The notes under the pieces are model-generated. The model ran no database searches, was not told the DNA's origin, and saw only the letters and a program-made list of their open reading frames with translations. Shown piece after piece: positions 31,665 through 47,878 of a DNA stretch of 64,000 bases (the first letter of the stretch is position 1; each line of letters starts with the position of its first letter). This stretch comes from Natronospira bacteriovora (lineage in GTDB: Bacteria; Pseudomonadota; Gammaproteobacteria; Natronospirales; Natronospiraceae): NCBI RefSeq assembly GCF_030848495.1, contig NZ_JAVDDT010000003.1, forward strand, positions 62,001 to 126,000, read 5' to 3'. The position numbers were made by a program, and so were the translations under genes.

Positions 31665-32237
31665 TTAGAACCGATACCGCAATCCCAGGCCAATGAAGTT
31701 GGAACCACCCTCCACGCCGCTGAAGGTGCCGAACACCCCCGAACGATGATGCAGGCGAATCATGGCGCTCCATTGGCTGTCCGGTGAGGGCGGCGCGAAT
31801 TCCAGTTCCATCAGCAGATAGTTGAGCAGGCGGGCCGAGCCTTCGTCGTCCGGCTCCGAGCGGGGTTCCAGGGGAGGCACTTCCCAGGCGTAGGACAGGC
31901 CCTGCCCGAAGGCGAAGCGGGTATCCAGCCAGCGATCCCATGGGAAATCCATCCAGCGGGCCACCAGCACCACATTGCTCTCCCAGTGATGCTGCATGCC
32001 GTAGTGGCGTACCAGCTGCCCCTCCCACTCCCAGCTCACCCGCTCGCTTTCGTGCCAGCTGTAGCTCAGTGCCACCGCATTGAGATAGGAACGGCGCATC
32101 TCCGGATTCAGCTCGCGCACGATATCGATCAGGCGGTCCGGGCTGTTCTTGGCCCAATAGGCCGCCACAGACCATGCATCCGCGGTTGGCGGAGTGGAAG
32201 CCAGGCAGCACGCCAATGCGCAAATCCATCGCCTCAT
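31665..32237 (-). CDS. Predicted outer-membrane beta-barrel protein, PagL-like
   Basis: 190 residues from ATG 32237 (MRRWICALACCLASTPPTADAW), giving a clear signal peptide. The mature protein has alternating hydrophobic strands and ends in an aromatic barrel terminus (FIGLGLRYRF). Near the C-terminus, IRLHHRSGVFG places His-x-Ser as in lipid A 3-O-deacylases such as PagL, but overall similarity is modest and the catalytic assignment is inference. Stands alone between the downstream palindromic element and the chemosensory operon. Confidence 0.7.
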   Translation of the reverse strand: MRRWICALACCLASTPPTADAWSVAAYWAKNSPDRLIDIVRELNPEMRRSYLNAVALSYSWHESERVSWEWEGQLVRHYGMQHHWESNVVLVARWMDFPWDRWLDTRFAFGQGLSYAWEVPPLEPRSEPDDEGSARLLNYLLMELEFAPPSPDSQWSAMIRLHHRSGVFGTFSGVEGGSNFIGLGLRYRF

Positions 32238-32354
32238 GGTCAATACCTCCAACAAGGCATTTGACCGCAGCGACGGTGTCTAGCTCCCCGCACACCCGAC
32301 CTGCCATGGATACCTCAAGGGGGCTGTCGGGCAACCCCGCAGACAGCGAATCGC

Positions 32355-33638
32355 CTAGAACAGCTCCACGGTCGCTGAATCATCCCTGGAAGTGCGCCGC
32401 TGATCCAGGGAGGCTTCAGAACCGGACGTCCCCGTATGCTGCACATGGGTATCACGCTGAGAGTCCATCACATAATGGCTCGCCAGTGCGTCCACATCGA
32501 ACGATTCAATGGCATTCGAATCGCCTTCCCCTGGTTCAAGCGAATCACAGATCCGGCGCTCATGCATCTCAATGGCATGGAGCGCGGACTGTACCTGTTC
32601 AAGCTGCTGACGGGTAATATCCTGAAATTGCACTCCGGCCAGTGCCTCCATGCTCTGCTCAGCCAGACGGCGACTGGTGCCCCGCAAATGAGCCATGACC
32701 GCTTCATGATGGGACATGACTCGTTCACGCTCTTCTGCCATCACTTCCAGCTCTGTTCGAATTCGCCGAAGCACACTCTCTTCGGCCTCAACGACCTCGT
32801 CCGATTCCCCCTGCAGCTTTGCTGCTGACTGGTCCTTGATGATGGCGGTGACGGCGGGAATCTCCTGTTCCACGAATCGAGCGGCCTCCTGACTCTTCAT
32901 GGCGAGGGCGCGAACCTCATCCGCCACCACCGCGAACTCCCTCCCTGCCCTGCCCGCTCTCGCCGCCTCGATCGCCGCGTTCAAGGCAACGAGATTCGTC
33001 TTGACGGCGATGTCACGGATCATCTGCACCGACTCCATCAGTTTGTCGGCACGCCCCAGCATCTGTTCAGCCCGCTCCCGCTCAAGCTGGAGTTGAGCAC
33101 TGCGTCGCTCGATGTAACTGGCAATGTCACTGACCGCCTTATCCTTGCTGGCCCGCAATGCCACATTACCCTCTCCCAGCGTCTCTGTTTCCGCCTCCGA
33201 TTCTTCAACAAAGGTCAAAAAACGTCGTGATTCATCATCCATTGCCTGAAGGCGCTGAATCATGCCCGTCGCAGCGGAGTCGGTTTCAGCCTGAACACGC
33301 TGAAGATGCCCTCTCAAAATCGGATAAGCCGGCTGCACGGAGCCCAGGGTTCTCCGTATCACATCCTTGAGGTTGCCACGCTCACCCGGACCACTGATAC
33401 CGAGCTTGCCGAGAAGCCCCGTTGATGCGGGGGTGAACAGTGACATCGCCGCCGCTACCCCAAGAGACAGCAAGACACCCCCCGTCAAGGCCACAAGATA
33501 CGGATTCGACAGAAACAACTGCAAAGGCAACAGAATCATCAGCCCACCAAGCAGGCCGGCAAGCAGTAAGCACGGCAAGCGTGCGGCCCAGCCGGGAACT
33601 TGGGACTCTCTGTCAGGCTCCTCCGGATTGAATGCCAT
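32355..33638 (-). CDS. Membrane-anchored methyl-accepting chemotaxis protein without a sensor domain
   Basis: 427 residues. Two closely spaced membrane helices (about 23-46 and 50-70) leave no periplasmic ligand domain. The cytoplasmic coiled coil contains the MCP hairpin tip [20 protein letters not shown] and [20 protein letters not shown] (about 225-270). The region after the tip (about 280-345) is a coiled coil that ends in a [14 protein letters not shown] segment, also found in other non-classical MCP-like proteins. Good GGAGG site 6 bp before ATG. Last gene of the chemosensory operon. Confidence 0.88.
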
Positions 33639-33649
33639 ATGGCGCCTCC

Positions 33650-34033
33650 TCAGGCCGCATTCATGTCCAGATTCAGGAGCTTGCCGAGGACTGCCCTGAG
33701 ATTATCCGCAGTCACCGGTTTGACCATCCAGCCGGTGGCCCCATTGCGACGGGCCTCGTCCTTTTTCTCCTGCTGGGATTCGGTGGTCAACACAAGGATT
33801 GGCGTTCGTGCGTGAGCAGGAAGGGCACGGGCCTCTCTTATCAAGGTAAGACCATCCATGCGCGGCATATGAACATCAGTGATCAGAAGATCGGGCTTGA
33901 AGCCATTCCTCAATCGCTCCAGCGCTTCCTGTCCGTCATTGGCCGTCTCCACCTTGCAGCCAGCCCGCTCCATGATCGTCGCCATACTCATGCGTATGGT
34001 TCCTGAATCATCCACCAGGTAGATCGTCTTCAT
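33650..34033 (-). CDS. CheY-type single-domain response regulator
   Basis: 127 residues, one receiver domain. Acidic pair in [10 protein letters not shown], phospho-acceptor Asp in [13 protein letters not shown], Thr in ILVLTTESQ, and Lys in [12 protein letters not shown]. It is the only stand-alone receiver in the operon and the likely output of its CheA. Start overlaps the parA stop by 4 bp. Confidence 0.93.
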
Positions 34034-34857
34034 TGCAGTCCTCCTTGGAGTGCCTGTGACTTGGGATACACATCGACGCAGCCGTGCTCAAGATTCGGCA
34101 AGCCCGCCCCCCTTACCAGAGCCTCGGCCACAAGAAAATAATCCATGCTGCCCCGACTTCGAGGGGCCACATCACGTACCGGCCTCCCTTCCCCGAAGGC
34201 CTCCGCCAACCGAATATCACTTCGAATTCCCCGAAGAATACGGGTTGCGCCGAACTCTGCCGCCAACTCATCCAGAACGGATCGCTGCAAGCGCACTCGG
34301 CGATCAACCATCACAGGCAGAATGCCCAGCAGATTCGGCTGATGACCTCCGCTGAGACTGGCGCGCATGAACAGGCGTGATAGCGCTCTCACACCAGCCG
34401 CAGCCAGGTGATGAGGGATCAGTGGCACCAGAACACTGCCCGATGCCATAAGCGCATTCATCAAGATCGAATCCATGGAAGGCGGCGTATCCAGAATAAT
34501 CACGTCATACGGCTCGAAGGCCGGATGGCAGAGCGCCCGACGAAGACGATGCCAGTCACCACCCGGGTGGCTCCCATCAAAGGCAGGATCGGCAGGAATC
34601 ACATCCACCCCCGTGGGGGTAGAATGAATAGCCTGCGAGAGCTGTGACTCTTTGCCGGCAAACACGCAATGACTGCCGATGCGCACGTCTTCCTGCAAAC
34701 CCAGGCCAATGGCCACATGGTTCTGCGGATCCAGATCAATGATCAGCACACGGGCATCACGTGCTGTCAGTTCCGCGGCAACATTCACCGCCGTTGTGGT
34801 CTTGCCGGAGCCACCCTTTCGGTTGGTTATGGCAATGGTACGGGGCCGAATATCCAT
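34030..34857 (-). CDS. ParA-family ATPase of the chemosensory operon
   Basis: 275 residues from ATG 34857 (MDIRPRTIAITNRKGGSGKT). Deviant Walker A KGGSGKTTTAVNVA, Walker A' region IIDLDPQNHVAIGLG, and Walker B YDVIILDTPPS. Such MinD/ParA ATPases within che clusters (ParC of Vibrio, PpfA of Rhodobacter) position chemoreceptor arrays on the nucleoid or at poles; a similar role is inferred here. Its ATG shares one base with the upstream TGA, indicating coupling. No parB is nearby, which argues against plasmid partition. Confidence 0.9.
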   Translation of the reverse strand: MDIRPRTIAITNRKGGSGKTTTAVNVAAELTARDARVLIIDLDPQNHVAIGLGLQEDVRIGSHCVFAGKESQLSQAIHSTPTGVDVIPADPAFDGSHPGGDWHRLRRALCHPAFEPYDVIILDTPPSMDSILMNALMASGSVLVPLIPHHLAAAGVRALSRLFMRASLSGGHQPNLLGILPVMVDRRVRLQRSVLDELAAEFGATRILRGIRSDIRLAEAFGEGRPVRDVAPRSRGSMDYFLVAEALVRGAGLPNLEHGCVDVYPKSQALQGGLQ

Positions 34858-35123
34858 CAACCCGTCTCCCTCTGCACCGGCTGATCGATCCGATTGAGCA
34901 GGGGCATGATATGTTGGCAAAGCCAGGGATCCGCCGGCTCGCCAACCACGTCCGCTTCCAGATAGTAAAGAACCTGAAACACCGCGGAATGCATCCAGAT
35001 GCAATGGGAAATATCCACCGGGCGTTCAGGGTGAGCACGCACCGCCTGGAACAGATCCTCCGCTTCCTCGACTTCACAACGCTCGATCAGCTGAATGCGA
35101 TCCGCATCAATCTCAAGACTCAT
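34857..35123 (-). CDS. Small STAS-like protein
   Basis: 88 residues. RIQLIERCEVEEAEDLFQAV and RPVDISHCIWMHSAVFQVL follow the strand-helix-strand pattern of STAS/anti-anti-sigma domains, with SHCIWMHSAV at the position where those proteins often have a phosphorylatable Ser. Wedged between cheA (4-bp overlap) and parA (1-bp overlap), so clearly part of the system. Possibly an adaptor or modulator; its function is not known. Confidence 0.7.
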   Translation of the reverse strand: MSLEIDADRIQLIERCEVEEAEDLFQAVRAHPERPVDISHCIWMHSAVFQVLYYLEADVVGEPADPWLCQHIMPLLNRIDQPVQRETG

Positions 35124-37651
35124 GTCAGTAGCCCCTTCATATCCAGGATGAAAAGTATTCGCCCATCACCCAACAAGGCATGACCGGTGAACAGGTCACT
35201 TTGCCTGAGCAGCCCTTCCAGTGGCTTGACCACCACCTCCATGTCTTCACCCACGTCATCCACACGAAGGGCAACACGCCGGGACTGCCAGTGCAGGAGA
35301 ACGAAACTGGCCACCGCGTCCGGCTCCTGCGTTTCTTCCGGTGGCTCGATCCCCAGGTGCTGGTTGAGATCAAGCACTGGCAAGACTTCCTCCCGAACCA
35401 TGATCACCGGCTGATGGCTAACCTTCTGAATGTCGGCGGGACTGCGGCGTACGATCTCGACGACGGCCTCAATGGGTATCCCCAGCTGCTGCCGCCCGCA
35501 ATGGGCCAGCAATACCCGAGTGACCGCCATGGAGAGCGGAAGGGATAAGGTCACACAGCTGCCTTCTCCAGGGACGCTGTCCAGGTCGATCTGTCCATCC
35601 AACGCCTCCACGGTGTCGCGAACGGCGTCCATGCCAACACCTCGGCCAGAGACTTCCGAAACAGCGTCCGCCGTGGAGAAACCTGGCGCGAAAATGAGTT
35701 TCTGCCTTTCTCTCTCATCCATGCCGTCCAGTTCTTCTGCACTGACAATGCCTTTCTCGAGCGCCATGGCAGCAATCCGCTCCGGATCCAGGCCTCGGCC
35801 GTCATCGGCTACTTCCAGCCGCAACCAGTCGCCCGAATGCCTGGCCCGCAACAACAGTCGGCCACGATCCGGCTTGCCAGCGGCACGTCGTTCCTCCAGT
35901 GACTCGATCCCATGATCCAGACTGTTTCGTACAAGGTGCGTGAGGGGGTCAACCATGGCCGCGAGCACCTGACGATCCGCCTGGGTACCCTCCCCCTCCA
36001 GCACCAGTTCGACCTGCTTGTCCAGCTTGCGTGCAATGTCGCGTGTCAGCCGACGAAAGCGCTGGAAGGTGGTCGCCACCGGCTGCATCTGCACTGCCGA
36101 CACCGCCCTCTGAAGTTCTCCGGTCACTCGCTCCAATAGCTGAGCCTGCTCCTTGATCTCTCGTGAGAGCTGGCGGGACCCGTGATCCTGTTCCGCTCGG
36201 CGTGCCAGATAAGGCAAACCATTGCGCGCCACAATCAGTTCGCCCACCAGCTCACCCAGCTGATCCAGGCGCTGGGTGTCCACATGCACATGCGCCGGCC
36301 CCTTCCGAGACTGCGCTTGAACACCGGAGTCGTTACCAGCTCCGGCCTCCACCTTTTGTTCTGAAACCTCCGATCCCGTGCCGACAACTTCCGGGGAATT
36401 CCCGACCTGTGCCTCAGACGGCATTCCAGGGGCGTCATCAAACAAACCGACCATGGCCGGATCCATCTCCGCCGTGGCCGTTGAATCGGCACTCGGTTCC
36501 GACAGGAACAGGCCGCCGCCGCCATCCGGCAGCGACCAGGCCTCGTCGTCATTGACGCCGCTGCCAGCCCCATCTTCCATGCAGGGCTGACAGCGGCGCT
36601 TCATGGCCTCAACCACGGCCCGCTTCCATGCCACCGGGATTTCTCCCAGGTCCTGTAGCGCACTCAACCATTCCAGGCCCCGATACACCCAAAGGCCATT
36701 ACCAAATAGGTTCATGCCCACTGTAATGGCACGCTCAAGGGCGTCACCATCGTGTCGGCAGATGGCGTCATCGAGGGCATCCAGCAGATCATCTTCCGCG
36801 GTCAACGGACGTGGGTCACCGTCCAGACGCAGCAACGAATCAATGGGTACCGTCATTATCTCAACCGGGATTCCTGAACGATCGGCGAACTGCTGTAACG
36901 TCCCGGTATCTGCTGAGGTGAGCAGCGAAAGCGTGAGATTAAAGCGAAAAGTGTCCATCTCGGAAAGGTCTTCAGGCACCTCGGCAGCCTCCACGCCCAA
37001 TGCCAGAAACCCCGGCAGTTCCATGGCCCAGGCCAGAGGATCTCGCCCCTTCAGGAAAGCCTCCGGATCCGGCTCCAGCCGGATCAGCCTAAGATCCGAT
37101 GCCCCCGCCTTGAACTGATGGACGAAGCTGCGGATCAACGCAGCTACCGGGAAGCAGGCCATGGCATTCGGATTGATCTGCACATCCGGAGGCGATCCAT
37201 GATCGGAAGGCGTTGCCTGTGATGCCAGAACACCTTCGCCCAGCACGGAAGCAATACGTTTGACCAGCCGCTCTGCACGCTCGGACCCACTCAGGTTCGA
37301 TACGCCCCCCTCCGCCATTTGATCGACCCAGGCCTGAGTCTGATCCACCGCCTCCAGCAACAGATCCACGAAATCAGCATCAGGCTCAAGCTCGCCCGTG
37401 CGAAGCCCATGCAAGAGCTGCTCTGTTTCGTGGAGCAGGCGGTTGAGTGCCGGTGCCTCGAACAGGCCTGCGCCACCCTTGACCGTATGGAGACTGCGGA
37501 ACACCGCATCCACGGCTGCCCGCTCACGGGGTTGTTGCTCCAGAACCAGCAGGCCGTCAGCGGCCGACTGCAACTGCTCCCGTGCCTCCACCACGAACTG
37601 TGCAAGCAGGGGATCCGTTTCCGTAGCACTGACATCATCAGCCTGATTCAC
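35120..37651 (-). CDS. cheA: Chemotaxis histidine kinase CheA
   Basis: 843 residues. I choose a GTG start at 37651 (VNQADDVSATETDPLL) because a perfect AGGAGG lies 5 bp upstream, while the in-frame upstream ATG runs through cheR. One HPt domain with phospho-His55 (RSLHTVKGGAG); a central domain of about 160-400 residues not matching the E. coli P2 domain; dimerisation helices (about 454-520); HATPase with N-box HLVRNSLDHGIE (572-583), GRGLDPERIA and GRGVGMDAV; and a C-terminal CheW-like P5 domain. Cys-rich KRRCQPCMED around 352-360 is unusual. Confidence 0.95.
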   Translation of the reverse strand: MNQADDVSATETDPLLAQFVVEAREQLQSAADGLLVLEQQPRERAAVDAVFRSLHTVKGGAGLFEAPALNRLLHETEQLLHGLRTGELEPDADFVDLLLEAVDQTQAWVDQMAEGGVSNLSGSERAERLVKRIASVLGEGVLASQATPSDHGSPPDVQINPNAMACFPVAALIRSFVHQFKAGASDLRLIRLEPDPEAFLKGRDPLAWAMELPGFLALGVEAAEVPEDLSEMDTFRFNLTLSLLTSADTGTLQQFADRSGIPVEIMTVPIDSLLRLDGDPRPLTAEDDLLDALDDAICRHDGDALERAITVGMNLFGNGLWVYRGLEWLSALQDLGEIPVAWKRAVVEAMKRRCQPCMEDGAGSGVNDDEAWSLPDGGGGLFLSEPSADSTATAEMDPAMVGLFDDAPGMPSEAQVGNSPEVVGTGSEVSEQKVEAGAGNDSGVQAQSRKGPAHVHVDTQRLDQLGELVGELIVARNGLPYLARRAEQDHGSRQLSREIKEQAQLLERVTGELQRAVSAVQMQPVATTFQRFRRLTRDIARKLDKQVELVLEGEGTQADRQVLAAMVDPLTHLVRNSLDHGIESLEERRAAGKPDRGRLLLRARHSGDWLRLEVADDGRGLDPERIAAMALEKGIVSAEELDGMDERERQKLIFAPGFSTADAVSEVSGRGVGMDAVRDTVEALDGQIDLDSVPGEGSCVTLSLPLSMAVTRVLLAHCGRQQLGIPIEAVVEIVRRSPADIQKVSHQPVIMVREEVLPVLDLNQHLGIEPPEETQEPDAVASFVLLHWQSRRVALRVDDVGEDMEVVVKPLEGLLRQSDLFTGHALLGDGRILFILDMKGLLT

Positions 37652-37679
37652 ATAACCTCCTAAGCTGGTCAACGGCGAT

Positions 37680-38597
37680 TCAGCCGCAGGCCAGATCTTC
37701 CATGTCCGAAACGGAACCATCCTGGCCAGGGCCACGGGTTCCCACGGGACGCTGATACACAATGGCTTCCGGGAAGCGGCGATACAGAAAATCTGCATTC
37801 ATGCGGTGCATGGATTCCGAATGGCCCAGGCAAACGAATCCACCGGGCCTGAGCGCCTTGAAAAGTCGCCCGGCAGCTTCCCGTCGGCTTTCATCATTGA
37901 AATAGATCAGGAGATTGCGACAGAGAATCACATCCATCGGAGGCAGACGTGCCATCCAGTCATCACTGTTCAGATTGATCTTGCTGAAACTGACCGAACG
38001 CCGAATGGCTTCACAGATGCGATACTGTCCCGGCCCCTCGGGGCGCAGGTAACATTCCCGTCGGGCTGCCGGAAGCATCCTCAGGGCGCGCTCACCGTAG
38101 ACCCCTTCCTTTGCTCGACGCAGCGCATCGGTGTCCACATCCGAGGCATGAATTTCCACAATGTAGTCATCCACCGCAGGCCAGGCATCAAGGAGCTCCA
38201 TGGCCACTGAGTAAGGCTCCTCGCCGGTGGAGCAGGGGATGGACCAGATACGCAATGGCTCGCTGTCGGGCACCTTCCGGCGACGGCGGTTTACCACAAT
38301 CTCAGGCAGGAGACTGCGCGTCATGCACTGGAGTTGATAGTACTCGCGGTTGAAATAGGTCTCGTTGACCGTGATGGCATTGGTCAACGCCTCGAACTCC
38401 TCGGTACTCGTGGATGACTGAAGTACAGCGAGATAACGCCGATGGTCGGACAATCGGAGTTGTTTCATTCTGCTGGCGACCCGCTTCTCCACCAGATAAC
38501 GACGATGATCTTCAAAGTAGAGACCCAGGGTCTCGAGAAAGAGAGCACGGAACGCTTCGAAATCCTTGTCACTCATCGCCATGGAGACATCGTTCAT
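37680..38597 (-). CDS. cheR: Chemoreceptor methyltransferase CheR
   Basis: 305 residues from ATG 38597 (MNDVSMAMSDKDFEAF), 2 bp after the cheB stop; longer upstream readings only overlap cheB. SAM-binding WSIPCSTGEEPYSVAMELLD, the ALTNAITVNETYFNRE segment, and DVILCRNLLIYFN are diagnostic. It lacks TPR extensions. Methylates Glu residues on the receptors. Confidence 0.95.
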   Translation of the reverse strand: MNDVSMAMSDKDFEAFRALFLETLGLYFEDHRRYLVEKRVASRMKQLRLSDHRRYLAVLQSSTSTEEFEALTNAITVNETYFNREYYQLQCMTRSLLPEIVVNRRRRKVPDSEPLRIWSIPCSTGEEPYSVAMELLDAWPAVDDYIVEIHASDVDTDALRRAKEGVYGERALRMLPAARRECYLRPEGPGQYRICEAIRRSVSFSKINLNSDDWMARLPPMDVILCRNLLIYFNDESRREAAGRLFKALRPGGFVCLGHSESMHRMNADFLYRRFPEAIVYQRPVGTRGPGQDGSVSDMEDLACG

Positions 38598-38599
38598 GT

Positions 38600-39721
38600 T
38601 CAGGCCGTCTCCGCGTTCTGGCCAACCTGACGCAGGTGGCGAAGGAGCTGCTGGGCAACCAGGTTTGACGGAATGACCATGTCGGCCGCGCCCCTGTCGA
38701 TCAACGCCTTGGGCATGCCCCATACCACAGCCGTGGCCTCGGATTCCGCAATGGTGAACCCGCCACCGTGGTACAGCTCAGCCATCGACTCGGCACCATC
38801 GTCGCCCATTCCGGTAAGCAGCACGCCGGCAATCGAGGCTGAGGGAAGCTGTTCGATCGCCGACTTCACCAGGCGATTGACCGATGGATGCCAGAAGCCG
38901 CTTTCGTCGCTCGGGACAGGCATGGCCTTGAGTACGCCATTGCGGTTGGTCATGACCATGTCGGCATCGCCTCGGGCAATATAGACACCGCCCGGCCGAA
39001 TATCGGTCAACTTGTCCACCTCTGTAACGGTCAGTTGACAGCGCTCGTTCATGCGTTTGGCGAACACACCGGTAAAGCTGGAAGGCATGTGCTGCGCTAC
39101 CAGCACAGGCCAGGGAAAGTCCGCGGGCAGCTCGGGGAGGATGCTTTCCAATGTACGCGGGCCTCCGGTCGACACGCCGATGAGAACCACTCCCTCACGA
39201 CTTACCGGCATTGTTTCCGCACGCCTTGGGCTGGTAACCGCCACTGGCTCTGCGGGATCGATCTCGGTATCGGAAACACCGCCGATTCTCGCCGTGGCGG
39301 CGGCGCGCACCTTCTCGATCAATTCACGACGAACCCGCTCCATATCCACCGTTACCGTGCCGCCAGGCTTCTGGATATAATCCACCGCCCCCAGCTCCAT
39401 GGCCTCCAGCGTTGCCAGCGCCCCCTGTTCCGTCAGGGAGGAAACCATCACCACCGGCGTAGGCATCTCGGTCATGATTCGGCTGAGGCATTCAAGGCCG
39501 TCCATTACCGGCATATGAATATCGAGAGTCACCACGTGTGGGCGAAAGTCACGAACACGTTCCAGGGCATCCGCACCGTCCCGCGCCATAACCACTTCCA
39601 TGTCCGGTTCGGCATCGAACATACGCATCAACTGCCTGCGCATGAGGGCGGAATCGTCCACCACCAGAACACGGGTAACGCCCTCTCCCTTTGATCTGAT
39701 CCGCTCGGCTGTCTGCCCCAT
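38600..39721 (-). CDS. cheB: Protein-glutamate methylesterase CheB
   Basis: 373 residues: receiver domain with phospho-Asp in VVTLDIHMPVMDG, a linker, then methylesterase with Ser in IGVSTGGPRTLESIL, His in AQHMPSSFTGVFA and Asp in LTGMGDDGAESM. The catalytic triad is intact. Its ATG shares one base with the stop of the triple-CheW gene. Confidence 0.96.
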   Translation of the reverse strand: MGQTAERIRSKGEGVTRVLVVDDSALMRRQLMRMFDAEPDMEVVMARDGADALERVRDFRPHVVTLDIHMPVMDGLECLSRIMTEMPTPVVMVSSLTEQGALATLEAMELGAVDYIQKPGGTVTVDMERVRRELIEKVRAAATARIGGVSDTEIDPAEPVAVTSPRRAETMPVSREGVVLIGVSTGGPRTLESILPELPADFPWPVLVAQHMPSSFTGVFAKRMNERCQLTVTEVDKLTDIRPGGVYIARGDADMVMTNRNGVLKAMPVPSDESGFWHPSVNRLVKSAIEQLPSASIAGVLLTGMGDDGAESMAELYHGGGFTIAESEATAVVWGMPKALIDRGAADMVIPSNLVAQQLLRHLRQVGQNAETA

Positions 39722-41379
39722 CAGCTGACCGCCTCCAGCTCTGCCAGGTCTTCCGGCGCCAGAAGCCGGCTCCTGTCCACGACCAGCACCATCCCCGCAT
39801 CACCTTCCCGTCGGATGACGGCCGCGACCCAGTCTGCCCTGGACGCCGCGAGTTCACGGGCATCACTGACCTGCTCCTCGGCAACCTTCAGTACTTCACT
39901 GACCGAATCCACGATGAAGCCGGCCCTTTGTCCCTGCAGCTCCAGAACCAGCACCCGTTGCGATTCATTGCGTTCACTGACTGGTAAGCCGAATCGTCTA
40001 CGCATGTCCACCACGGGAAGAACACGGCCGCGCAGATTGATGACACCTTCCACACGAGCACCCGCACTCGGCACGCCCGTGAGTGTTTCGGGAAGCCTGA
40101 GAATTTCCTTGACGATTTCAATCGGCGCTCCGAACGACTGCCCGTCAAGCTCGAAAATCACATATTGCTGCATGGCGGCTGCCTCGCTGTTGCCTGCTCG
40201 CATGTTCTTGTCAGTGCCTTTTTCACTCTTCTGATCAATCATCTTCTCCGCCATCTCCACAAGGCGGTGAACAGAAAGGAAGGCATCCACATCAATCAGG
40301 GTCAGCAGGCCTGTGTTACTTCGTTCCTCGCTGGCCGAGACCGACGATGGCCGGTAAACACCGGAAAACTCCCGAGCCTGTTCACCACCCAGCTGAGGCA
40401 CCGGACCGATATCATCTTCCGGGATGCGCAGAACTTCATTGACATCATCCACCACCAGGCCAATGGAAAGCCCGGCGTCGCCCACCGGCAGAATCACCAC
40501 ACGTCGTCCACCGGCCGCTTCCGGGAAGTCCAGCAGGCGACGCAGGCTGAACAATGGGACGGTGGCACCCCGCAAGGCGGCCAGGCCCAGCATGCCCTGC
40601 GGTGCCCTGGGTACCGGGCTGATCTCTTCGGGACAATCGAGTATCTCGCGCACCGGCAAGGCATCCAGACCGAAATCCTGCCCATCCACACGTACGCTGA
40701 CCACGATCTGTTCGGCGACCTGACTGCGGGACGCAGACTCCATGTCACTGCCCGCTAGCGGGCTGGCATCATTTTCCGCCGCCATGACACCGCCTTGCTG
40801 CCATGCCCCCAGCTGGTGATCCAGTACGGCGTCGACATCCAGCAACTGGAGAATGCGGGATTGATCCTGAATCGCGCCCCGGGTCATCAGACCACCCGGG
40901 CTGTCCTCCGATGTTCCCGCCCCATCGCCATCCTCGCCACGCTCTCGACGAAGGGGGGCGGGCGCCTGAAATACGCGATGAACCCGGTCGACACGAAGGC
41001 CCAGTTTCGGCTGGCAGCGAACAACCAGAATGCGCTGCCCCTCGTCATCTTCGGCTTCCTCGTCTCCGGCCACACGACGCAGGCAGAGCACGGGCAACAC
41101 ACTGCCCCGAAGACTGAAGACCCCCGGCAGACAATCGGGGCTGAGCGGCACCGGGGTGATGGCTGGTGGGCGGATGATTTCACCGATCATCTCCAGCGGC
41201 AGCGCCATTTCCCGCCCACAGACATCAAAGGCGAGATACTGCGACATCTCTGATGCCATGGTGGTCTGTCGGTCGTCGTAGGACTCCAGCGAGTCATCCC
41301 TGGCAGCGGCTTCGACGGCCGTCCTGGCCTCCCTGGACGGCTCTGTACCGTCGGATACATCTTCTGCATGGGTCGACAT
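39721..41379 (-). CDS. Fusion of three CheW domains
   Basis: 552 residues with three tandem CheW-type SH3-like domains: about 46-188 (SQYLAFDVCGREMALPLEMI; GVFSLRGSVLPVLCLRR), 223-370 (EQIVVSVRVDGQDFGLDALP; GLAALRGATVPLFSLRR) and 404-548 (QQYVIFELDGQSFGAPIEIV; GVINLRGRVLPVVDMRR). Each retains the LRG(x)VLP core that contacts receptors and CheA. Linkers are acidic. Ordinary CheW has one domain. The fusion could crosslink several receptor or kinase partners in one array. Confidence 0.93.
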   Translation of the reverse strand: MSTHAEDVSDGTEPSREARTAVEAAARDDSLESYDDRQTTMASEMSQYLAFDVCGREMALPLEMIGEIIRPPAITPVPLSPDCLPGVFSLRGSVLPVLCLRRVAGDEEAEDDEGQRILVVRCQPKLGLRVDRVHRVFQAPAPLRRERGEDGDGAGTSEDSPGGLMTRGAIQDQSRILQLLDVDAVLDHQLGAWQQGGVMAAENDASPLAGSDMESASRSQVAEQIVVSVRVDGQDFGLDALPVREILDCPEEISPVPRAPQGMLGLAALRGATVPLFSLRRLLDFPEAAGGRRVVILPVGDAGLSIGLVVDDVNEVLRIPEDDIGPVPQLGGEQAREFSGVYRPSSVSASEERSNTGLLTLIDVDAFLSVHRLVEMAEKMIDQKSEKGTDKNMRAGNSEAAAMQQYVIFELDGQSFGAPIEIVKEILRLPETLTGVPSAGARVEGVINLRGRVLPVVDMRRRFGLPVSERNESQRVLVLELQGQRAGFIVDSVSEVLKVAEEQVSDARELAASRADWVAAVIRREGDAGMVLVVDRSRLLAPEDLAELEAVS

Positions 41380-41411
41380 GACTGTCTCTCCCCTGGCAAT
41401 GGTGACCGCCC

Positions 41412-43343
41412 TTACAGGGCCTGCAACTCGTCGGCCAGACCGGCGATCTCTTCCGCGGCACGAGCCAACTCACGTGCACCCTGCCCCTGCTGTCGAGCCG
41501 CCGCAGCCGCCTCGGAACTGGACTGATCCGCCTGGGTTGCCGCCGAAGCAATCTGCTCCACCGCTGTCTTGGCTTCTTCCACCGCATTGCGGATCTCGTG
41601 GGACGCCTGGGCGCTTTCACGGTTGCCGGTCACGACGCCACTGATGCGCTTTTCCACCAACTCGATGCTTTCGATGATCTCCTGATAACGCTCGGCATCG
41701 CCGGAAAAATCACGCGCCAGGGTGTCGAACAGGTGCTGCGAAGCATCCACCTGACCACGGGCATTACCCACCACCTCGCCAACCTGTTCGGCGTTCTCAG
41801 CGGCATCATGGGACAGATTGCGGATGTCGTTGGCCACGACAACGAAGCCGTCACCGAACTCTCCGGCTCGGGCCGCTTCGATTCCACCACTGACGGCGAG
41901 CATGCTGGTCTTGATGTTGACAGTCTCAATGCTCTTCATGACCCGCTCGATGTCTCCGCAGACACCTTCCACACCGGCCACGTCCTGATGGAAGGCGAGG
42001 CTTTCTTCACCGTTTTCGGCAATGCGTTTAAGCATGCCCTCCACCTTCTCCCTGTTTTCCTTGAGGAGCTCCAGGATTCGATCGCCCTGTTCTACCAGTG
42101 CGTCCGCACGTTCCGAGGCCTGGCGTGCACCCCCAAGCAGCTGCTCCACCTGCGCACTGGTGGCCGATGCTCCCTGGCTCTGCAGCCGTGCCCCCTGCTC
42201 GATCTGTTCAATCGCCGTTCCAATCTGCTCCGAGGCCCGCTGGATTTCTTCCACAGAGGCCGCCAGCTGTTCCGCCGAAGAGGCCAGATCGGCGCCACGC
42301 CCGGTGCCATCGGTATTCCCCTTCACCTCCTCGGCAACCTGGGCAAGGTGCTGGGCCGATTCCTGACATTCCGCCAGCGCCCGGTTCTGCTGGGTCACCA
42401 TGCGGGCGGCTTCCTCGCAAGCGGAGGACTGCTGTTCGGATGCCGACGCCACTTTCTCCATCTCCTGCTGCACACGGTCCGACACTTCCGCTGACTGCTC
42501 GGCGGTTTCCAGAATCTCCCTTGCACCCTGCAGCATTTCATCCATGCTCTTGCGGGTGCGCTCCAGCTGCTCAATGGCGGCATCCCCCGCCTTGCGGTCA
42601 TCCGCACCGGCCTGAGCCGCCTGCTGGATCTTTTCCACCAGCGCCTCAACCTGCTCACCGATTGACGTCACATGGGTCTGGATCCGGTCGGCACTGGACT
42701 GGGCTGTCTCGGCCAATGCACGCACTTCATCCGCCACCACGGCAAATCCCTTGCCATGCTCACCGGCACTGGCCGCTTCCACGGCAGCATTCAGCGCCAG
42801 CAGATTGGTCTGATCAGCAATACGGGTGACCGCACGAACGATCTCACCCACTTCCCGGGCGGAGTCAGCCATGGCATTGACCTGCTTGACCGCCTCTTCC
42901 TGCCGGGCCACCCCCTTGCGCACCCCCGCCACCATGCCTTCAATCAGGCGATTGGCAGCTTCCACCTCGTCCTTCATGGCATCCAGGCGCTTGATGGCAC
43001 TGCGACTGTTATCCCGCTGCTGTCGTACCGCTGCCGCCGAGCTGGCAACCGCCTGAAGGGTTTCCTGGGCGGCGGAAGCCGCTTCTTCGGCACCGGTGGA
43101 CACCTGCTCCATGGAACGCCCCAGTTCTTCCGATGCGGCCACCGACTGACTTACGGAGCTGGACAACTGCGTTGCGGCCGCCGCAATTCGCTCAGCGGTC
43201 TGCTGCCGGCGTGCGGTATTGCGTGCCCGGCGTCGAACCGCATCGGCACGACTCCGATCAGCGTCCGGATCGAACCCGTCTGCGGGCGGCGGCGGGGCCG
43301 CCCCGGCGTCCTGCTTGACTTCACCTGTCTTGACCAATGCCAT
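41412..43343 (-). CDS. Cytoplasmic chemoreceptor with two MCP hairpin tips
   Basis: 643 residues from ATG 43343, 6 bp after GGAGG. There is no membrane helix and no recognisable ligand domain; the N-terminus is a short Pro/Ala-rich tail. Tip 1 (about 174-215) is canonical: [20 protein letters not shown] then [16 protein letters not shown]. Tip 2 (about 470-515) is divergent: [20 protein letters not shown] then [20 protein letters not shown]. The rest is coiled coil rich in Ala, Glu and Gln. First gene of the chemosensory operon, 32 bp before the triple-CheW gene. Confidence 0.92.
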
Positions 43344-44051
43344 TTCATTCCTCCAGTGCCGGATGGCAGTTGCGGTAGTCGACAACGTTACGTCTGCTGA
43401 TCCGCTTCATGAGCGCAGGATCATCGGTTGTCGATCTTATGTCGTGTCGTTTCACTATGACACAAAGACGATACAAAACCATTACAAATACACTACAGCC
43501 GATAAGCGGGCGCAAAACTGGCGTGAATGGTAAAAATTCGCGGGAATTGGGACGATCGATCCACGACATCCGGATATCGATTGGAAGCGTGGGTGAACTG
43601 GCTGTTCACGACTGATTCTTTGTTTTAAATTGCGTATATCGGGTGCGCACACAGTGCGAGACCAGTGGGCGCACGATGCCGTCACCGATCCTGGCGGCCA
43701 CGACCGATCCTGATGTGTGTACCCACCGCCAGGATCGAGCCGGCCCCTGGCTCGAAAGCGACCGCAGCAATTCACGGAACACCGTTTGCATAGGCCTGTC
43801 TTAAAACAAAACCCTTCCATCCCTGTCTCCCTGGTGCGAGACGCGAAAAAAAGCAAGCCCGATAGACGCAGATATGCGCCGTTTTCCGCACATGCTCACT
43901 TAAAGCGTGGCATAAATGCGCCAAATGGCAAGAATCTGCGTCACCGTTCATCACCGAATGGCGACCGTTCCAGACGAAATGCAGGGGCACCCCCTCGCCC
44001 CCTCGACCAGAAAGCGGTTTCCCCCGGAAATTCGACGGAACCCTGTTACCC
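43344..44051. other. 708-bp divergent control region, AT-richer than surroundings
   Basis: Lies between the start of the chemosensory operon and the XRE/S24 repressor gene; no gene is supported. 43440-43530 and 43605-43645 are AT-rich for this genome and likely hold promoters, but no clear -35/-10 pair was assigned. A 12-bp perfect inverted repeat (43686-43697 with 43726-43737, 28-nt spacer) and a smaller GTGCGC/GCGCAC pair near 43643-43673 are present and could be binding sites. Confidence 0.6.
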
Positions 44052-44711
44052 ATGACCGCAAGGAATGCAGAATTCGAACCGGAGGCGTTTCGCGAGCGCC
44101 TGAATTCCCTCGGACAGCGCTTCCGAAACAGGAAGACCATGGCCCAGGCGGCCGGCGTCTCGACGGACGCACTCAGCCGCTATTTGAGGGGAGACAACCA
44201 GCCCCCGGTCGGTGCCATGGCGAGACTGGCCATTGCCTGCAATGTGTCTCTTGACTGGCTGGCAACCGGGCGCGGCAGCTGTGACCATGAGGACTTTCGC
44301 ATCCCGCCACTGGATACCGACGGCAGTGAAAGCAGCGGACGACATTCACCGGCCAGCCTCCCCGGCCTGTCGCTTCGCCGCGAGTGGGTGGTGCAGGCCC
44401 TGCAGGCGCCCCCCGAAGATCTCGCCGTCTGCCTGGTACAGGATGAGAGCATGAGTCCGCTACTGAAAACCGGCGATGTCATGGTCATCGACAGGGAGCG
44501 AGGCGAAGGCCCCCGACACGACGGCATCTACGCCCTGAGCCTCCAGGACGCCTTTCTGGTCAAGCGGATACAGCACAAGCCCGGACAGAAAATCGAATTC
44601 CACAGTGAACACCCCGGTTACCAGAGCTTCGAGATGGAGCTGAATGCACTCAAGGCCGGCCGCATCCGCATTCACGGCCGCGTGATCTGGTGCGGCCGGC
44701 GCATGTTCTGA
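44052..44711 (+). CDS. XRE-type regulator with LexA/CI-like S24 domain
   Basis: 219 residues. N-terminal helix-turn-helix (about 25-62, MAQAAGVSTDALSRYLRGDN), a linker, then an S24 peptidase-like domain: QDESMSPLLKTGDVMVID carries the catalytic Ser, and DAFLVKRIQ carries the catalytic Lys. No Ala-Gly or Cys-Gly autocleavage site is obvious in the linker, so self-cleavage is uncertain. Phage-repressor-like, but no phage genes are nearby. It may control the 708-bp divergent region and the downstream c-di-GMP gene. Confidence 0.85.
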   Translation: MTARNAEFEPEAFRERLNSLGQRFRNRKTMAQAAGVSTDALSRYLRGDNQPPVGAMARLAIACNVSLDWLATGRGSCDHEDFRIPPLDTDGSESSGRHSPASLPGLSLRREWVVQALQAPPEDLAVCLVQDESMSPLLKTGDVMVIDRERGEGPRHDGIYALSLQDAFLVKRIQHKPGQKIEFHSEHPGYQSFEMELNALKAGRIRIHGRVIWCGRRMF

Positions 44712-44791
44712 GGAACCTCTGGTCATTCGTTCGTGCCTTGCAATGTTCCGGCACAATGGAAAGAATGGGTGTGTCGACACGGAAGAACTCC

Positions 44792-47700
44792 ATGACGCAT
44801 CCAGCAATGTCCTCCCCAAGACTTCGGCTTGGGCTGCTCGTTTTCGGCCTGACGGCCATCGTGGCCATCAATGGCCTGTTGGCCAGCGACCTCTATCGCC
44901 AGTACCAGCGCACGCTGAGCGATGCCCAGGCATCGGCGGGGATCATTGCCAGCGGGCTTGAGCAGTACACGATCCGCACCCTTGAGAGCGTGGATACAAC
45001 GCTGGACGCCCTCGCCAGCCGTGTACTTGATGCCTACGGACCTATCACCCTGGAACACCCCGACATCACCGCCATCCTGGGCCAGAGTGTGCGCGGCCCG
45101 ATGGTCAGCAACATCATCGTCGTGAATGCCTCCGGGCGCTGGGTCAATGACCTCTACGGCGACCCCAACCTGGCCTCCAACCTGGCGGATCGGGATTATT
45201 TCCGCACCCACCAGCTCATGCCCACCGACGGTCTCTTTCTCGACCGCCCCCTGGAGGCACGCACCAGCGGCATGCACTTCATTGCCGCCAGCCGTGCCCT
45301 GCGTGATCAGGATGACCAGTTCCTCGGTGTCATCGCCGCCATCATCGACCCCGGCCACTACCAGGCGCTCTTTCAGGAACTGGGCGTCAATCTGGCGGGT
45401 GGCCTGGCCCTGGTGGATACCCGGGGGGCACTGGTGACGACCAGCGGTGACATCCCCGGCTCGCTGATCGAAACCGTGGCAGACAATGGTTCGGCACAGA
45501 CCCTCAGACAGTTCAGTGATCGGGAATCCGGGAAGGATTACTTTCTGGTTCAACGCCCCGTGGGCGGCTATCCACTGGTGCAGGCCGTCACCATCGACGT
45601 CGACCGGGTCCTCCAGCCCTGGCGGGCCACCCTGCGTGGCTACCTTTTCCTCGGCACCGGAGTCAGTCTGCTACTGCTCCTGGGCGTGGTTCTGCTCTGG
45701 CGGGAAACCCGGCGCAGTGAATGGGTTCAACAGGAGCTGCGGCAGAGTGAATCCCGCTTTCGCAGTCTGATCGAATCCACCAGCGACTTTGTCTGGGAGA
45801 TGGATGCCGACGGTTACTGCGTCTACGCCAGCCCCCAGATCGAGGACATGATGGGATACCGCCCCGAGGAAGTGGTCGGAATGCGCCCCTACGACCCCAT
45901 GACACCGCGGGAACAGGACCGACTGACCGACGTCTACCACAGCATCATCGAAGCCCGGGAACCCTTCCACATGCTGGAGAACCGAAATGTCCACCGGGAC
46001 GGGCATGAGGTCGTGCTCGAGACCAGCGGTGTGCCGGTCTTTGATGATGAGGGCAACTTCCGTGGCTATCGCGGCATTGATCGGGACATCACCGAACGCA
46101 AACGCCTGGAAGAGGCCCTGCGCAGCCTGGCTCTGCTCACCGGCAAGGAGTCCGAGCAGGAATTTTTCCAGCTGGCCAACCGGAACCTGGCAAGAGCCCT
46201 GGGCATGCGATGCTGCGTTCTCGTTCAGTGCGTCGGCGAGGAGCAATTGAAAATGCGTGCATGGCACGACGAGAAGGGCGGTCATGAGTGCCCGGCCTTG
46301 CCGGAACAGATCATCAGGGCCTTGCTACGTGAAGAACGGCTGGTGATCTGCGACGGATTGGCCAGCGAAATCCCGGATGATCGCCTGGTCAGCGCCATGC
46401 AGGGAGAAAGCCTGTTTGCAACAACCATTCGCCCGGCTTCCGGCATTCGCTGGGGTTATCTGATCGCTCTGGATACCCAGCGGGTGACACGCGTGCGTTT
46501 GTCCCGGGTGGAACCCATACTGGATGTGTTTGCTGCGCGCATTGCCCTGGAGCTGGATCGCAACCAGGCACAGGCCGACCTCAGCTGGGAAGCCAGCCAC
46601 GACACCCTGACCGGCCTGCTCAACCGGCGGGCCTTTGATGAGCAGTTACGGCTGACCCTGGCAAGGCCACCGGCCAAGGGCATGGTGCACGCCCTGATCT
46701 ACATGGATCTGGATCAGTTCAAGGTGGTCAACGACACCTGCGGCCACATGGCAGGCGATGAACTGCTGCGCCAGCTGGCCCGATCGCTGAGCACCCGTTT
46801 GCGGCGTTCAGACCAGCTGGCAAGGCTGGGGGGCGACGAGTTCGGCCTGATTCTCGCGGACTGCCCCATGGATCGCAGCATGGAGATCGCCGAGACACTG
46901 CTGGATACCATCCGCGCCTTCCAGTTCCAGTGGGAAGGCCGCAGCTTCTCGGTGGGTGCCAGTATCGGCATGACCCATACCCGCGAGGCGGTCGGTGCCG
47001 CCAGCGATCTGCTCGCCCAGGCGGATCTGGCCTGTTATGCGGCCAAGGATCTCGGCCGCAATCGTATCCAGGTCTATCAGGTGGACAATCTGCACATCCG
47101 CGCACGGCATGGTGAAATGGGCTGGGTTCCCCGTCTGGACCGCGCCCTGGTGGAGAACCGCTTTCAGCTGTTCGGGCAATGGATGGTACCCACATCCCCG
47201 GACAGCCACCTGACACCCAGCCTGGAAGTCCTTTTGCGCCTGATCGACGAGGATGGCACCGTCATCGATGCCGCCGAATTCGTTCCGGCGGCGGAACGCT
47301 ACAATCTGATGACCCGAATCGACCGCCATGTCATCGACCGCGTATTCGCCATTGCCGCGAATACCGACGACGCTCATCGCCCACGTCGATGGTCCATTAA
47401 TCTGTCCGGTACCTCACTGGGCAACGGGGACCTGCATGCCTTCATAGAAGGCCGCTTCCGGCATTATGAAGTGGATCCAGCGTGGTTCTGCTTCGAGATT
47501 ACCGAAACCGCGGCCATCCACAACTTCGAAGAAGCACAACGACTGTTCCGGCACCTTCGAAGACTGGGCTGCCGGGTAGGCCTGGACGACTTCGGCAGCG
47601 GCCTTTCCTCGTTTGCCTACCTGCGGGAGATCGAGGTGGATGCCCTGAAGATAGACGGCAGCTTCGTCCGCAGCATCGCCAGTGATGAAGTCAGCCGCAG

Positions 47701-47878
47701 CATGGTCCGGGCCATGCACGAAGTGGGCAAGGCAATGAACCTCGATACCGTGGCGGAGTTCGTCGAAGACGACGCCATTCTCGCCGTACTGCGGGAACTG
47801 GGCGTGGACATGGCGCAGGGTTACGCCGTTCATCGACCCCAGGCACTGGAGGAACTGATCCCACCGCCCCTGTCGTGA
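44792..47878 (+). CDS. Membrane PAS-GAF-GGDEF-EAL cyclic-di-GMP protein
   Basis: 1028 residues from ATG 44792 (MTHPAMSSPRLRLGLLVFGL), with a GGAAG site; upstream ATGs lie at 44756 and 44765. Two membrane helices (about 10-32 and 285-307) flank a periplasmic Cache-like domain. Then PAS (about 325-445), a GAF-like region (about 455-595), GGDEF (about 600-765; LARLGGDEFGLIL intact) and EAL (about 780-1020). The EAL motif reads EVL (PSLEVLLRL), but downstream ligand and catalytic motifs ITETAA, DDFGSG, LKIDGSFV and AEFVED are kept. It could therefore both make and degrade c-di-GMP. Likely co-transcribed with the repressor gene 80 bp upstream. Confidence 0.93.
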   Translation: MTHPAMSSPRLRLGLLVFGLTAIVAINGLLASDLYRQYQRTLSDAQASAGIIASGLEQYTIRTLESVDTTLDALASRVLDAYGPITLEHPDITAILGQSVRGPMVSNIIVVNASGRWVNDLYGDPNLASNLADRDYFRTHQLMPTDGLFLDRPLEARTSGMHFIAASRALRDQDDQFLGVIAAIIDPGHYQALFQELGVNLAGGLALVDTRGALVTTSGDIPGSLIETVADNGSAQTLRQFSDRESGKDYFLVQRPVGGYPLVQAVTIDVDRVLQPWRATLRGYLFLGTGVSLLLLLGVVLLWRETRRSEWVQQELRQSESRFRSLIESTSDFVWEMDADGYCVYASPQIEDMMGYRPEEVVGMRPYDPMTPREQDRLTDVYHSIIEAREPFHMLENRNVHRDGHEVVLETSGVPVFDDEGNFRGYRGIDRDITERKRLEEALRSLALLTGKESEQEFFQLANRNLARALGMRCCVLVQCVGEEQLKMRAWHDEKGGHECPALPEQIIRALLREERLVICDGLASEIPDDRLVSAMQGESLFATTIRPASGIRWGYLIALDTQRVTRVRLSRVEPILDVFAARIALELDRNQAQADLSWEASHDTLTGLLNRRAFDEQLRLTLARPPAKGMVHALIYMDLDQFKVVNDTCGHMAGDELLRQLARSLSTRLRRSDQLARLGGDEFGLILADCPMDRSMEIAETLLDTIRAFQFQWEGRSFSVGASIGMTHTREAVGAASDLLAQADLACYAAKDLGRNRIQVYQVDNLHIRARHGEMGWVPRLDRALVENRFQLFGQWMVPTSPDSHLTPSLEVLLRLIDEDGTVIDAAEFVPAAERYNLMTRIDRHVIDRVFAIAANTDDAHRPRRWSINLSGTSLGNGDLHAFIEGRFRHYEVDPAWFCFEITETAAIHNFEEAQRLFRHLRRLGCRVGLDDFGSGLSSFAYLREIEVDALKIDGSFVRSIASDEVSRSMVRAMHEVGKAMNLDTVAEFVEDDAILAVLRELGVDMAQGYAVHRPQALEELIPPPLS

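Follow-up and report, generated by a model that had tools for sequence, protein, structure and literature searches.

The window analysed here, a stretch of 64,000 nucleotides from Natronospira bacteriovora (contig NZ_JAVDDT010000003.1, positions 62,001 to 126,000 of the forward strand), harbors a chemosensory operon of nine genes, the last of which encodes a membrane-bound methyl-accepting chemotaxis protein (MCP), termed MCP2 in the following. Judged from its sequence, the cluster is a full chemosensory gene set of the known F9 class, of the Vibrio cholerae cluster I type. In our reading, MCP2 serves this system as a CheZ-like phosphatase of phosphorylated CheY (CheY~P), a ParA-type ATPase positions the array and a small STAS-like protein is a core part. 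We put the probability of this reading at roughly 0.55, and the sequence pattern gives about even odds that the membrane-anchored MCP2 is CheZ-like in function. The F9 cluster as a whole is already known, but a CheZ-like motif borne by a receptor appears to be a new reading. F9 arrays have been imaged, yet their function, inputs and signal reset stand open in the accessible parts of the literature (PMC7534058, PMC9321776). A phosphatase activity of MCP2, if true, would explain how a pathway without an off-switch gene of its own is reset. Such a site would bear on F9 signal reset as well as on the conserved C-terminus of McpA-like receptors, as far as the latter is described in the available text of PMC7184735.

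According to the accessible portions of two reports (PMC9321776, PMC7534058), the F9 class is marked by a double-signalling-domain receptor together with a triple CheW. Among 2781 species, 64 have a full and 8 a partial F9 system. The receptor, DosM, usually has no sensor domain, the V. cholerae F9 parts build double-layered cytoplasmic arrays, and deletion of CheA in this system gave no phenotype under standard conditions. We assign the window cluster to F9 because of its domain content, the two tips of its DosM, the triple CheW protein (CheW3), the shared gene order and the literature. Since cheA, cheB, cheR and cheY lie in the same cluster, the system is full rather than partial. A preliminary description of the window had correctly seen one operon-like set but had not recognised the known class. 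With V. cholerae cluster I (DosM VC1403, CheW3 VC1402, CheA VC1397, receptor VC1394), the window shares the double-signalling-domain receptor, the triple CheW, CheA and a membrane receptor, which is of class 24H in V. cholerae (accessible parts of PMC7534058 and PMC9321776). The window DosM was aligned with its counterparts from four other F9 loci, and no membrane helix was evident in it. For comparison, a search with a CheW3 alignment was performed and the best 80 of 529 confirmed loci were retained; the rates given below apply to that sample, which stems mostly from alpha-, beta- and gammaproteobacteria with few loci labelled delta or Desulfo-. The usual F9 order is DosM, CheW3, CheB, HEAT-repeat protein, CheR, CheY, CheA, STAS-like protein, (ParA), CheY, MCP2, (ParA), the HEAT-repeat identity being confirmed by Pfam in locus L030.

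In the structure model of MCP2, two predicted membrane-type helices near the N-terminus are followed by a long hairpin, whose tip is intact, and by a disordered C-terminus. This bears out the preliminary description of a membrane MCP without a periplasmic sensor. Sixty-six MCP2 proteins (>85 bits, >250 aa) were compared, namely those of the window, L027, L028 and L030 and 62 from the 80 loci. Q337 and D340 are present in all 66 and Q344 in 64 (R in 2), while 62 have F or Y at residue 338. The C-terminal [EQ][LF]F occurs in 64/66, and the spacing from the tip to D is 116 or 117 in 54/66. In an alignment of 42 sequences, the invariant columns comprise tip residues and Q337, D340, L426 and F427.

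In CheZ, DxxxQ is the phosphatase motif, with AXXF(Y)Q just ahead of it and a linker leading to a C-terminal CheY-binding helix (PMC7750401, accessible part). The F/Y-Q-D-x-x-x-Q of MCP2, F/Y exchange included, equals this pattern. The likeness extends from the motif on a long helix over a linker to a C-terminal peptide ending in F: ten readable CheZ proteins from related genomes end in LGF, and the conserved ELF end of MCP2, a possible counterpart of the CheY-binding helix, is disordered in the model. Unlike CheZ, which works on CheY, MCP2 has a receptor tip and a membrane anchor, and it scores below the cut-offs of the CheZ models. At the level of sequence, MCP2 shares the active-site pattern of CheZ. 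The earlier statement that the cluster contains no CheZ is right for a separate gene, and tblastn with CheZ over the 80 F9 loci gave no match either, but it is misleading because MCP2 itself bears the CheZ-type motif. Published descriptions of VC1394, in their accessible parts, mention no CheZ-like motif. In a literature search with thin coverage of subscription journals, no description of a CheZ-like motif in receptors was recognised.

Profile comparisons were used to follow this likeness. With hhalign, MCP2 tails and ten CheZ proteins aligned in register at DxxxQ with a probability of 65.4 (E 5.9e-5 for one comparison), against 3.8 and out of register for 19 ordinary receptor tails and 0.2 for reversed MCP2 tails. 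At E<=1, the NCBIfam CheZ model matches 16/42 MCP2s (best 2.1e-5) and the Pfam model 8/42 (best 6.7e-4). Over 56 whole genomes, Pfam CheZ hit five places below its cut-off. At least three of these are QFQDxxxQ receptors; of the other two, L147 overlaps a receptor open reading frame (ORF) and L148 is a receptor that lacks the motif. For 15 ordinary receptors, CheZ was absent from the 25 of 84 NCBIfam families listed, which means that at most 2/15 match. A PDB sequence search with the MCP2 tail profile returned coiled-coil noise only. We also considered that the motif might be the MDxVTQQNA motif of ordinary receptors; this was rejected, as profile alignment places the ordinary motif upstream of QFQD. 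Profile alignment is the fair control here, an earlier regular expression having demanded a residue before D and so excluded MDxVTQQNA; a looser expression gave 2/18 chance matches among ordinary receptors.

Several results weigh against the phosphatase function. The window MCP2 matches the NCBIfam CheZ model (NF041271) at E=0.0047 and 16.5 bits, the cut-off being 350, and gives no match to Pfam CheZ (PF04344). In the Pfam scan, unrelated coiled-coil families are matched just as often as CheZ, and ordinary receptors possess a D...Q of their own (MDxVTQQNA type), nearer to the tip (+86 to +100), in 6/15 cases. A structure search with MCP2 yielded chemoreceptors and unrelated helical proteins, with CheZ not among the 50 matches listed, a result which excludes nothing. 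Furthermore, the tipless relatives of MCP2 described below match no CheZ model and align weakly with CheZ in hhalign (probability 5.1). Since the matches to the hidden Markov models (HMMs) are weak, homology with CheZ is not established, and we would not class MCP2 as a member of the CheZ family.

In six clusters, the slot after cheY contains membrane proteins of 229-276 aa which have the same C-terminal module as MCP2 but no receptor tip (Table 1). All six keep the QFQDxxxQ motif and ELF, with seven residues following ELF in L068. Neither Pfam nor NCBIfam assigned them convincingly to a family, and their alignment matches MCP2 tails in hhalign with a probability of 99.7 (E 1e-25). True homology of these proteins with CheZ was also considered and is unsupported by HMM. 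For L068, L069 and L078, the range covered showed no full-length MCP2. In L086 and L101, Q344 is replaced by R in the full-length MCP2, whereas DxxxQ is kept in the tipless neighbour; in L085 the Q is kept in both. This pattern fits D and Q as a working site: it is expected if one copy per cluster must keep them.

The chief alternative sees in MCP2 an ordinary receptor with a structural or sensory role, whose QFQDxxxQ and ELF dock another partner (CheR, CheB, the HEAT-repeat protein or an output protein), the CheZ likeness being convergent or accidental. The intact tip of the aligned MCP2s and the sub-cut-off CheZ matches speak for it, and a different C-terminal pentapeptide, that of Aer2 receptors, docks CheR (PMC7184735, accessible part). 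We nevertheless regard it as less likely: the motif is kept in the window although the HEAT-repeat gene is absent, the tipless proteins have kept just this module and stand beside cheY, and F/Y-Q-D-xxx-Q with its F/Y exchange is the pattern of CheZ as given in the available text of PMC7750401. With MCP2 as a phosphatase, CheA in the DosM/CheW3 array would phosphorylate the adjacent CheY. The flexible ELF tail at the C-terminus of the membrane-anchored MCP2 would then bind CheY~P, and the side of the long MCP2 helix that bears DxxxQ would remove the phosphate near the base of the bundle, making MCP2 the CheZ of the pathway. The MCP2 tip would presumably still join CheA/CheW lattices or sense their state.

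Similar receptors occur beyond F9. A profile of the MCP2 tail (A4) matched 45/274 genomes of the class at E<=1e-6; 30 loci were kept, of which 27 were readable, the window and other F9 loci included. The motif is found in 27/27 readable loci, a figure which is not independent, as the profile was built on the motif. A CheY-like receiver ORF lies in 25/27 (17 of them 120-140 aa), compared with 0/18 ordinary receptor loci, some of them with little flanking sequence. L163-L167, L170-L173 and L178-L180 are non-F9 receptor-CheY pairs; they carry QFQD(R/T)xxQ, their ends are for the most part TFF-like, and they make up a second subfamily. In an F7-like cluster (L033/L155), the terminal receptor has QFQDITRQ and an IELF end. 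This agrees with the McpA-like receptors; the role of their conserved C-terminus is called "unclear" in the accessible part of PMC7184735. The likeness to McpA-like F7 receptors of the Pseudomonas aeruginosa PA0180 type runs through this receptor at the cluster end; the differences are an identity of 30% and another chemosensory class, and L033 was judged as F7 from gene order. It is conceivable, though we hold it rather tentatively, that F9 MCP2, F7 McpA-like receptors and the stand-alone receptor-CheY pairs form one family of membrane-anchored CheY~P phosphatases, with the tipless proteins as the bare module. If so, a DxxxQ in fixed spacing to the tip and a tether for CheY could allow the receptor state to gate CheY dephosphorylation, opposite to the textbook scheme, in which the route runs through CheA.

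The second component concerns ParA. The preliminary description took it as pointing to array positioning, which we judge right. ParA was classified in 64 clusters, consisting of 61 of the 80 loci plus the window, L030 and L028, with L027 left out; the 19 dropped loci had no usable CheA (11), a short downstream part without ParA seen (7) or an incomplete CheA (1). It is present in 35/64, at two different places in the order. Two forms of CheA occur, one long and one short, which differ by an insert of ~90 residues between the Hpt and dimerisation parts. Short CheA without ParA was counted 21 times, short with ParA 0, long without ParA 8 and long with ParA 35 times (Fisher p 1e-10), L069 being a borderline short CheA with 44/65 insert positions filled. 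On a tree of CheW3, CheB and CheR, at least 8 changes fall to the insert and 13 to ParA; of 12 independent pairs with a difference in ParA, about 7 differ in the insert in the same direction and 0 in the opposite one (median p 0.016). The tree is a quick one and carries a long-branch warning for L030 and for the window, whose branch length is 2.38.

From these sequence comparisons, the link between ParA and the CheA insert appears to be a new reading. In Vibrio F6, the CheA domain LID occurs only with the ParC/ParP system (PMC5706961, available part), and the F9 insert, by analogy, seems to be another example of a CheA segment coupled to a ParA-like positioner. Both systems share a CheA domain present only with a ParA-like partner, as far as this source describes it; the likeness of insert and LID lies in their occurrence, and unlike Vibrio F6 the window cluster has no gene for a ParP-type CheW-like adaptor. 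ParA homologues are common in che operons, and PpfA positions the cytoplasmic clusters of Rhodobacter sphaeroides (PMC2829493). As with PpfA-like proteins, the window ATPase is encoded in a che operon without ParB. CheOp3 of R. sphaeroides (PpfA, TlpT, CheA3) further resembles the window in its cytoplasmic array, ParA-like positioner and cluster-borne phosphatase of one CheY. There, the phosphatase resides on CheA3 and not on a receptor, and the accessible descriptions mention no DosM/CheW3 (PMC6829392, in part).

ParA might instead be a hitch-hiking partition gene unrelated to the array and linked to the CheA insert by shared descent, and its absence from 29/64 clusters and its two different sites would agree with this. 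Such an origin is improbable in view of the 0/21 short CheA clusters with ParA, the tree-aware pairs of about 7 to 0 and the frequency of ParA homologues in che operons, including the positioning by PpfA (PMC2829493). Against a positioning role stand the 8 clusters with the insert and no ParA in range, and the basic DosM N-terminus, which does not track ParA and thus does not identify its partner. This N-terminus, tried as a TlpT-like partner of ParA and rejected, has a mean net charge of 5.9 (n=12) with and 6.0 (n=6) without ParA, having been recovered in 18 of 61 classified loci only. In our favoured reading, ParA would act by way of the CheA insert, or of an insert partner, and position or segregate the array on the nucleoid, as an optional layer. 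The link to the insert provides an independent lead on the positioning of cytoplasmic arrays. As side observations, DosM and the HEAT-repeat protein share a MAL(V/K)KK-type N-terminus in many F9 loci, with or without ParA, and in L028 (5198-5822), an F9 cluster without ParA, the ParA slot holds an interrupted frame which looks like PilZ by eye.

The STAS-like gene is present in 64/69 F9 loci containing the CheA end (57 by BLAST, 7 by eye as neighbour-overlapped ORFs) and therefore is, by this gene content, a core part of F9; none was seen in L097, L098, L099, L104 and L120. The preliminary description had held that ParA and the STAS-like gene would not be core parts if homologous clusters elsewhere lacked them. 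This comparison, carried out here, upholds the STAS-like gene as core and not ParA, although the latter tracks the CheA insert. The window protein matches neither Pfam nor NCBIfam. STAS_2 matches 24/41 aligned relatives at E<=1, the window protein not being among them. Its AlphaFold2 (AF2) model (predicted local distance difference test, pLDDT, 91.9) has a STAS fold, and the best structural matches (Foldseek, VIA-align) are RsbV and SpoIIAA, the top rows being consistently STAS proteins; Z scores of 7.8 and 7.4 lie in a range that may reflect a common arrangement only.

Anti-sigma antagonists usually have a phosphorylatable Ser/Thr in a DSSG-type loop, which we take to correspond to one position of the STAS-like alignment. 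This position is S, T, A or P rather than a conserved Ser/Thr, so that phosphorylation there is, on this evidence from sequence, unlikely to be general across F9. The STAS-like protein would probably work as an adaptor without enzymatic activity and may lead to partner-switching (Rsb-type) outputs. Just downstream of the F9 clusters, ORF families resembling RsbR, RsbS, RsbT and RsbX occur in 8, 8, 7 and 3 of 80 loci; some members are in doubtful frames, and RsbR, RsbS and RsbT were checked by Pfam in L052 and RsbX by eye. In L052 (18973-21488) and also in L053, L064, L077 and L080, RsbR, RsbS, RsbT (two HATPase genes) and an RsbX-like gene directly follow MCP2, and ParA is missing. This hints at a stressosome-like module as a possible F9 output. 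No Rsb-like genes follow MCP2 in the window.

The window cluster deviates from most F9 loci in having neither the HEAT-repeat gene nor the first of the two CheY genes, absences which had been overlooked before. A search for the HEAT-repeat protein across the rest of the genome, run without a positive control, did not find it. These losses, the very long branch, the detection of DosM in just 1/3 genomes of the genus and an in-frame stop in the MCP2 of a genus-mate would suit a decaying or lineage-altered F9 cluster which no longer works as in V. cholerae. We consider this a poor explanation, because all nine frames are open with domains recognised except in the STAS-like protein, DosM, CheW3, CheA, CheB, CheR and CheY are intact by sequence, and MCP2 retains its motif and tail. 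In the genus-mate (L032, 5088-5990, G001:C76), the stop splits MCP2 close to the contig end; DosM was not found in this genome at E<=1e-40.

The features of the cluster are listed in Table 1. All nine genes lie on the minus strand with overlaps of 1 bp (CheW3/CheB, STAS/ParA) or 4 bp (CheA/STAS, ParA/CheY) and gaps of 2-32 bp (CheB/CheR 2, CheY/MCP2 11, CheR/CheA 28, DosM/CheW3 32), and a gap of 708 bp (43344-44051) lies upstream. The tight linkage, overlaps and upstream gap reported earlier were all reproduced. Pfam agreed with the earlier calls of MCP, CheW3, CheB, CheR, CheA, ParA and CheY, and relatives and fold with the STAS-like call; the two signalling domains of the first MCP had been missed.

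Table 1. Genes and sequence features of the F9 cluster (window coordinates) and tipless relatives of MCP2 (coordinates of the respective locus).
Feature	Position	Strand	Remarks
DosM-type soluble receptor	41412..43343	minus	643 aa; two MCP signalling tips; Pfam MCPsignal at two places
CheW3, triple CheW coupling protein	39721..41379	minus	552 aa; Pfam CheW in three stretches
CheB	38600..39721	minus	Pfam CheB and receiver
CheR	37680..38597	minus	likely ATG start 38597; longest ORF begins 38723; Pfam
CheA	35120..37651	minus	likely GTG start 37651; longest ORF begins 37798; Pfam Hpt, H-kinase_dim, HATPase, CheW
CheA insert	about residues 325-420 of longest ORF		between Hpt and dimerisation parts
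STAS-like protein	34857..35123	minus	88 aa
ParA-type ATPase	34030..34857	minus	KGGSGKTT Walker motif; Pfam; no ParB adjoining
CheY	33650..34033	minus	127 aa; Pfam receiver
MCP2	32355..33638	minus	427 aa; two predicted N-terminal membrane helices, hairpin, intact tip, CheZ-like module, VELF end
FQDxxxQ motif of MCP2	32607..32630	minus	codons of QFQDITRQ, residues 337-344; D340, Q344
Tipless protein, L068	18658-19413
Tipless protein, L069	8253-9083
Tipless protein, L078	10685-11512
Tipless protein, L085	18757-19548
Tipless protein, L086	15113-15802
Tipless protein, L101	12297-13037

The absence of motility genes noted before applies to the cluster but not to the genome: on another contig, genes for FliG and for a separate CheZ are present, and the host is therefore probably flagellated. 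No sigma-70-type site was found in the 708-bp gap. Beyond it (44052-47878), a CI-like S24 repressor and a dCache-PAS-GGDEF-EAL protein are encoded divergently from the operon, the latter at 44690-47878 with dCache, PAS, GGDEF and EAL domains. A link of this pair to the operon, suggested earlier, is not borne out: the orientation is opposite, and no such pair is among the 22 largest recurrent neighbour families of F9 loci. For a functional link with the cyclic di-GMP gene, likewise, no evidence was found. On the other side of the operon, a 196-aa ORF without Pfam match follows MCP2 (31665-32255), and a similar-looking ORF occupies the same place in the genus-mate L032.

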